Below, piece after piece: positions 5,205 to 59,733 of a stretch of 64,000 bases of DNA; position 1 is the first letter of the stretch, and every line of letters begins with the position of its first letter. The position numbers and the translations under genes are program-made. The stretch is taken from the NCBI RefSeq assembly GCF_029338515.1, contig NZ_CP119988.1:3534001-3598000 (forward strand). The letters are read 5' to 3'. Source of the DNA: Haloglomus litoreum (lineage in GTDB: Archaea; Halobacteriota; Halobacteria; Halobacteriales; Haloarculaceae). The notes under the pieces were generated by a model. The model was not told the DNA's origin, did no database searches, and saw only the letters and a list, made by a program, of their open reading frames with translations.

Positions 5205-5334
5205 GGATTGCTCGTTCGGTTTGAAAGCCGTATTTTAGCGTAGAATAATCTTGATATATAATTTCTGTCGATTTTCCATGTATTATGTGCACTTCTAGCG
5301 GATTCTTCGGGCGACAGCAACGACAAGAAGGACA

Positions 5335-5921
5335 TCTACGAAGCCCTCGCACTCTCGACCCGCCGCGACTCGCTGCGCTCCTCGGTCGCTCCGCTCCCTG
5401 CGGTGCTTGCGTCGTCGGGGCGGGGTCGAGAGCGCTCGCCCTTCGAGTCCGCCAGGGGCTGTGTTTCGAGTCGAGCGACGCGCATGGTGGTTCCAGCGGA
5501 GCGCTGGTGCCCCCACACCTCCCCGCGCGAGCGCCGAGTGTCGGCGAACACGCTCGCGTTGCTCGCGGTTCGCCACGGGTGGCGCTCGCGCGCTTCCTGT
5601 CCACGGAACCGGCTGGCCGAGCAACCGCTCGTCGGCCGGGAGCGCGTGGCCGTAGCGGCTTGCCCGCGAGGCCCGCGCGACCTGGGGAAGGGCAGGGTCG
5701 CTGCTCCGTGACACGGTCAATGCCCTGGTGGACTCGAAGGGCGAGGCCGCTCCGTGGTGCCCCGGCGACGGCGAGGCCGAAGGCCGAGCAACGGAAGACG
5801 CAGCCCGCGCAGCGAAGCGAGCAGGAACGTCTTCCGGCACAAGCACCGCAGCGGAGGGAGCGGAGCGACCGGAGCGAGGAGCGCAGCGAGCCGCGGCCCC
5901 GGAGCGGCCGAGGGCTTCGTA
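5335..5921. repeat. Nested inverted-repeat element, copy 1
   Basis: A GC-rich, gene-free block bounded by imperfect terminal inverted repeats: TACGAAGCCCTCG at 5337-5349 and its complement at 5909-5921. Inside lies a second inverted pair (ctcgcccttcgagtccgcca at 5435-5454, its complement ending at 5745, one mismatch). The arms between outer and inner pairs are also partly complementary to each other. A ~270-bp core lies between the inner repeats. The same architecture recurs at 59159-59733, with the core in the opposite orientation. Reading frames across it are Arg/Ala-rich shadows. It fills the gap between the converging rfcL and lyeJ. No transposase is encoded, so it could be a MITE-like non-autonomous element or a structured repeat. 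Confidence 0.8.
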
Positions 5922-59158: not shown

Positions 59159-59733
59159 CTACGAAGCCCTCGCGCTCTCGTACCGCCGCGACTCGCTGTG
59201 CTCCTCGCTCCCTTCGGTCGCTGCGGTGCTTGCGTCGTCGGGGCGGCGACGAGAGCGCTCGCCCTTCGAGTCCGCCAGGATTGTGCCAGTGTCACGGTCG
59301 CGGCGCCCCTGCCCTTCCCCAGGTCGCGCGGGCTCGCTCGGGCTCGCCACGCGCTCCCGGCCCGTGTGTTGAAGACGGGTCGCGCGTCCCCGTCAGTCGA
59401 ACCGGCGCGCGCTGGCTGGCTGCGACCGCCCCCGCGAGCGAGTTCAGCTCGCGAGCCCCGGCGGCGGGCGCCGCCCGTCTCTAAGCGCGCGAGGGCCGAG
59501 ACGCGCAACGGAGTGAGCATCGCAGGCGGCTGGGGAGGCACGAGGCTTACGACCCGACTGACCAACACGCGGTCCTGGCGGACTCGAAGGGCGAGTGCTC
59601 TCGGCGAAGGCGGCCGAAGCAAGCACCACAGCACATGCCCGGAACGGCGGGTGAGCGATAGCGAACTCGCCGCATGCCCGGACTGCGAGGAGCGCAGCGA
59701 GGCCCCCGAGTCGAGAGCGCGAGGGCTTCGTAG
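59159..59733. repeat. Nested inverted-repeat element, copy 2
   Basis: Bounded by a perfect 21-bp inverted repeat (starts ctacgaagccctcgcgctct at 59159-59179, complement at 59713-59733). Inside is a perfect 23-bp pair (59258-59280 and 59573-59595; starts ctcgcccttcgagtccgcca). The left arm matches the left arm of copy 1 in the same direction. A core stretch at 59289-59333 matches copy 1 core 5671-5714 only as reverse complement. AT-rich DNA (59040-59130) lies to its left. It separates the divergent aminotransferase and cupin genes. Reading frames inside are shadows. No transposase. Confidence 0.85.

Follow-up and report, generated by a model that had tools for sequence, protein, structure and literature searches.

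The two non-coding elements in the 64,000-nucleotide stretch of Haloglomus litoreum DNA analysed here (the window, bases 3534001-3598000 of a one-contig 4.70-Mb genome) belong to a repeat family that is present, as elements or element parts, at about 60 places in this genome. In the best explanation that we can offer, to which we give an even chance, they are non-autonomous intergenic repeats of the BIME or BOX kind, spread throughout the Halobacteria, whose hairpin arm would act as a folded single strand and would be served by a putative trans-acting protein. The preliminary description of a repeated, non-coding inverted-repeat element that lacks a transposase, can fold into long stems and matches none of the IS families tested was borne out by our analysis. 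The element was however described as having two copies, and this did not stand: besides the other places in its own genome, the arm occurs in 102 of 116 Halobacteria genomes.

The two copies in the window

Copy 1 lies at window positions 5336-5921 and copy 2 at 59159-59733. Both are real. The inner repeat's exact 20-mer was present at four places in the window, as compared with an expectation of 0.04, and the four matches of the arm profile fell at these same places, all of them arms of copies 1 and 2, with zero matches on the reversed window. Neither copy was found to contain a coding sequence. The outer inverted pair of copy 2 covers 22 nt with 100% complementarity and its inner pair 34 nt with 94% complementarity, the perfect 20-mer included. 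The outer pair of copy 1 has perfect complementarity solely across TACGAAGCCCTCG, and its inner 20-mer carries a single mismatch. The convergent and divergent settings previously described are those of copy 1 (RFC-like AAA ATPase, +; UbiA, -) and copy 2 (aminotransferase, -; cupin, +) respectively, the divergent reading being backed by Pfam. The features of the two copies are as follows.

5312..5335, + strand: outer-end tract rich in GAC, adjoining the left arm of copy 1 (alignment of the outer flanks of 139 arms)
5336..5457, + strand: left hairpin arm of copy 1, from the outer inverted repeat TACGAAGCCCTCG... to the inner inverted repeat ...CTCGCCCTTCGAGTCCGCCAGG (arm HMM, E 1e-30; fold)
5460..5721, - strand: full-length core of copy 1, its + orientation lying on this strand (core HMM positions 3-264, E 7e-62)
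5723..5921, - strand: right hairpin arm of copy 1, inverted, with an additional hairpin within its loop (arm HMM, E 2e-18)
59159..59280, + strand: left hairpin arm of copy 2 (arm HMM, E 4e-29)
59285..59379, + strand: initial ~107 positions only of the core of copy 2, a mosaic core (core HMM positions 6-107, E 1e-15)
59380..59572, + strand: rest of the core of copy 2, of the other core type (sequence comparison with L165, L166, L169, L171 and L172)
59528-59545: motif GGCTGGGGAGGCACGAGG in this core remainder (same comparison)
59573..59733, - strand: right hairpin arm of copy 2, inverted (arm HMM, E 4e-23)

The GGCTGGGGAGGCACGAGG of copy 2 represents the motif GGCTGGGGAGGC, which was found also next to arms in other genera.

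Architecture and copy number in Haloglomus

The ends had been read as two nested pairs of inverted repeats. The repeats themselves are real, but they are better understood as two inverted hairpin arms of ~115 nt with two ends each, the outer and inner inverted repeats being the 5' and 3' ends of a single imperfect hairpin. Two types of arm were recognised, type 1 with the layout CGAAG-CCCTC-stem...stem-TCGCC-CTTCG-AGTCCGCCAGG and type 2 with GAAAG-CCCCC...GCCCC-CTTTC-AGTCCCGCCC. The usual element consists of an arm, a core of ~270 bp (266 profile positions) in either orientation and an inverted arm. Core-less copies made of two arms (L063, L091 and L106), copies in which one arm hairpin is missing (L082 and L089) and mosaic cores, as in window copy 2, were also observed. 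Beyond the arm, the aligned outer flanks of 139 arms revealed a degenerate GAC-rich tract with 3-base periodicity, and this outer end is frequently repeated in tandem every 45, 48 or 51 bp. For example, the outer ends of L069, L066, L081, L085, L076, L063 and L056 have units of these lengths, all divisible by three, which contain TACGAAGCCCTCGCGCTCTC and a (GAC)n-like tract.

When copy 2 was used as query against its own genome, at least about 40 places matched, and more were found with end patterns and a second query; about 58 places were retrieved and parsed for anatomy. The arm covariance model gave at least 60 matches in the same genome, and further copies thus exist. The matches to copy 2 were 67-91% identical to it. 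The youngest-looking duplication is that of L061 and L070 (519.4k and 938.4k), distant loci with near-identical arm pairs and a left outer flank in common. At another place (L099:1763-1815, with orthologues in L238 and L239), the arm adjoins a conserved intergenic CAGATTACCGTCAGTTGTACTGGCGGCAACCGTTGCCGCTCCCTGGGT that is retained in species without the arm.

Conservation of pairing

Pairing in the arm has been maintained while its sequence changed. Among 75 arms, 20 of the 31 stem pairs were altered on both sides, and double changes were counted in 343 cells against 114 in shuffles, with none of 500 shuffles as high under a null that ignores phylogeny. Pairing was kept in 92.9% of cells, as compared with at most 45% in slid versions. 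The core behaved similarly: 17 pairs and 115 cells were altered on both sides among 38 cores, whereas the maxima in 200 shuffles, again with phylogeny left out of the null, were 16 and 46. The top core pairs found de novo build helices; the pair 146-203, for example, was AT in 16 cores, CG in 13 and GC in nine, with none unpaired.

Pairs altered on both sides with hardly any wobble intermediates, as at core pair 146-203, are also compatible with functionless palindromic DNA, kept self-complementary through hairpin-templated repair and gene conversion, and so is the exchange of whole hairpins that we observed among orthologous copies. However, the interior loops of the arm (CCC/CCC and a T.T mismatch) are fixed, indicating that the stem has not merely been copied into a perfect palindrome. 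Templated repair is expected to remove mismatched loops, yet these are fixed across families, and we consider this origin unlikely.

To assess the strand on which the structure would act, counts were limited to pairs shared by both strands, or were made on a G.U-free fold, because alifold itself partly generated an excess of G.U. Read from outer to inner end, the arms contained 50 A.C against 12 G.T, which favours the opposite strand as the RNA. In the core, three G.U pairs are fixed in the + orientation, yet A.C exceeded G.T among the remaining pairs. The strand tests of arm and core thus conflict.

Distribution

The arm covariance model found its 102 genomes in 41 of the 46 genera of Halobacteria sampled. 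When the phylum was sampled, it matched nine of 10 Halobacteria and none of 50 genomes from other classes. One exact match to the inner-repeat pattern was seen in the actinobacterium Kineococcus xinjiangensis (L037); it is probably due to chance, because the arm profile had no match there. None of the 4227 Rfam models matched. The repeat family appears to be undescribed so far, since no description of it was found in the open-access literature, although absence there is no proof. A nucleotide search with the chromosomal element gave few matches in plasmids, confined to the arm, and none in phage records; an arm pattern likewise had no match in viral contigs, and an origin from a phage or virus was rejected.

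Genomic context, mobility and turnover

According to a simple gene finder, 46 of 56 places were cleanly intergenic (14 convergent, 14 divergent and 18 tandem), orientation counts that are rough because the finder labelled copy 2 as tandem against its Pfam-supported divergent reading. Nine places overlapped a predicted ORF; of these overlaps, at least that of window copy 1 was due to a mis-call. The remaining place was unclassified. A terminator or promoter role defined by gene orientation was rejected, as no orientation was preferred among the classified places. The same lack of preference bears on the possibility that the arms are cis-acting RNA structures, that is, processing, stability or attenuation elements for neighbouring genes in whose transcripts they lie. 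Strong covariation is what such a role would lead one to expect, and the excess of A.C over G.T in the arms suggests selection as RNA on one strand. However, besides the missing orientation preference, the two arms are mutually inverted, so that just one would be sense in a given transcript, and presence at a given locus differs between species. We therefore regard cis action as improbable.

Element sequence was retained at both window loci in two sister species. Orthologous sites differed strongly in content (L072). At the L090 site, neither sister species had an element; the search for empty sites thus yielded at least one, and the objection to mobility stated earlier, no further copies and no empty sites, does not apply. 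Breaks in synteny relative to two sister Haloglomus genomes fall at the elements L062, L063, L091 and L106 (538k, 551k, 4616k and 4542k), which suggests that these elements serve as rearrangement points. The picture is that of an old family with slow turnover and recombination between copies.

Inverted ends, the lack of coding sequence, dispersal and patchiness between species would also describe an ordinary MITE or a degenerate IS, with long terminal inverted repeats that a known transposase binds in double-stranded form. Some transposable families generate no target-site duplication, and none was found here: in the sequence adjoining the ends of 19 copies, the longest shared direct word was no longer than in the permuted control. 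An end-pattern search of the Haloglomus genome retrieved no larger copy in which these ends enclose a transposase, and an autonomous copy of this kind was rejected for this genome. In addition, conserved non-complementary loops would be purposeless in a double-stranded end, and we see little likelihood that the family is of this kind. Chromosome-organising sites that bind gyrase, SMC or a nucleoid protein, as proposed for bacterial BIMEs, which gyrase binds, would suit scattered, intergenic and symmetric elements, but related genomes have anything between 0 and about 60 copies, and we hold this to be very unlikely too. Each rival is weaker than the reading as a BIME- or BOX-like repeat family on at least one test.

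The plasmid form

Several of the arm hits that stood alone in their genome proved to lie at one conserved locus, in which the arm is followed by a non-coding region of ~650 nt and then by a gene for an OB-fold protein, annotated as 'replication factor A / DNA-binding'. The protein resembles RPA in its C-terminal OB domain only. The following places carry the region.

L181:1450-3110; L200-L203; L220-L232 (plasmids); L210 and L213 (own genome): ~650-nt region ahead of the OB-fold RPA-like gene

The non-coding region matched 168 plasmid records, and 177 together with the gene, only about half of them covering most of the query; examples are pHME132 of Haloferax mediterranei and pHMA155 of Haloarcula marismortui. 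In PHS3 of Halobacterium salinarum R1, a related region lies beside an OB-fold gene, found as a BLAST match with no clear arm. The region is 76-97% identical across haloarchaeal families, and it also covaries. In eight genomes, all 12 close OB-fold homologues had a match of its profile beside them, and for 10 an arm lay at, or several hundred bases past, the far end of the region. Among these 10 are two loci in the Haloglomus genome itself, at 3160600 (L210) and 4253318 (L213). On its other side, the module is often flanked by prf1 (an aRF-1 paralogue) or by a HalOD1-domain or PIN-like gene. The dispersed elements are homologous to the plasmid region only across the arm and a further 30 nt or so, and the match of the region profile to window copy 1 covered the arm and some 30 nt further. 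Judged from this arrangement, the plasmid form may be a related version with a nucleic-acid-binding protein of its own, and the OB-fold protein might bind the arm.

Comparison with known elements

The REP/BIME elements of bacteria, which are associated with RAYT, are inverted pairs of imperfect palindromes that are intergenic, numerous and mosaic. The Haloglomus element is likewise composed of inverted pairs of palindromic units and is intergenic, multicopy and mosaic; however, its unit is ~115 nt as compared with ~20-40. The RAYT (Y1) gene is flanked by the unit in REP/BIME systems, whereas the only Y1 gene locus found in the Haloglomus genome has no arm nearby, and a Y1/RAYT partner was rejected. 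BOX elements of Streptococcus are modular too, being repeats that can form stem-loops and whose inner modules vary. The likeness is one of description; BOX belongs to another domain of life, and the Haloglomus element has two inverted terminal arms. Terminal inverted repeats are shared with MITEs and IS derivatives. Integron attC sites, which have R and L boxes and extrahelical bases and are served by an integrase in trans, were considered for their hairpin architecture only; we saw no gene cassettes.

Among haloarchaea, the SMRs and PATEs of Haloquadratum walsbyi are comparable in being numerous, without a transposase and without target duplication (PMC3119063). SMRs are more than 95% identical within a type, and their inverted ends bear no relation to known transposons (PMC3119063). 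Inverted ends, a length too short for a transposase and the lack of target duplication are found in our element as well, but its copies are only 70-90% identical (67-91% to copy 2) and carry compensatory changes. PATEs are described as derived from IS605-type elements, with palindromes near their ends and no terminal inverted repeats (PMC3119063); the Haloglomus element has inverted ends, although each arm, being a hairpin, recalls the palindromes by both ends of a PATE. A structured arm shared across the class is absent from the description of SMRs and PATEs in that source, as far as it was available. The plasmid form, a conserved and covarying non-coding region of ~650 nt on mobile DNA, resembles the giant ornate RNAs OLE, GOLLD and ROOL in what the accessible part of the account says of them (PMC12286853). 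It differs from them in being haloarchaeal, in lying beside an OB-fold gene and in matching no Rfam model, and it is known here as a DNA sequence.

Proposed mechanism and significance

In the BIME- or BOX-like reading, the unit is the ~115-nt arm with its fixed interior loops, two of which are inverted around a structured core of ~270 bp in Haloglomus. The arm would work as a folded single strand, either RNA or ssDNA, and be recognised in this form by a protein acting in trans. The best candidate for this protein is the OB-fold protein beside the plasmid form, with its two homologues in the Haloglomus genome, which may drive the spread or upkeep of the repeats. The dispersed copies would be protein-less relatives of the plasmid form that spread rarely and were then remodelled through recombination between copies, and they would operate like bacterial BIME or BOX elements. 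A further proposal is tentative, and we think it possible rather than probable: haloarchaeal plasmids may carry an unnamed structured RNA (or ssDNA) locus of ~650 nt with an OB-fold partner, whose terminal hairpin would have spawned class-wide, SINE-like, protein-less repeats that populate intergenic regions and mark rearrangements.

Compensatory change has kept a hairpin in about 90% of the Halobacteria genomes sampled, in numbers of up to about 60 per genome. Our results also tie a chromosomal repeat family to an OB-fold protein of haloarchaeal plasmids, a link that can be tested. With the plasmid form in Haloferax mediterranei and a related sequence in Halobacterium salinarum R1, both genetics and RNA work on this link are feasible.
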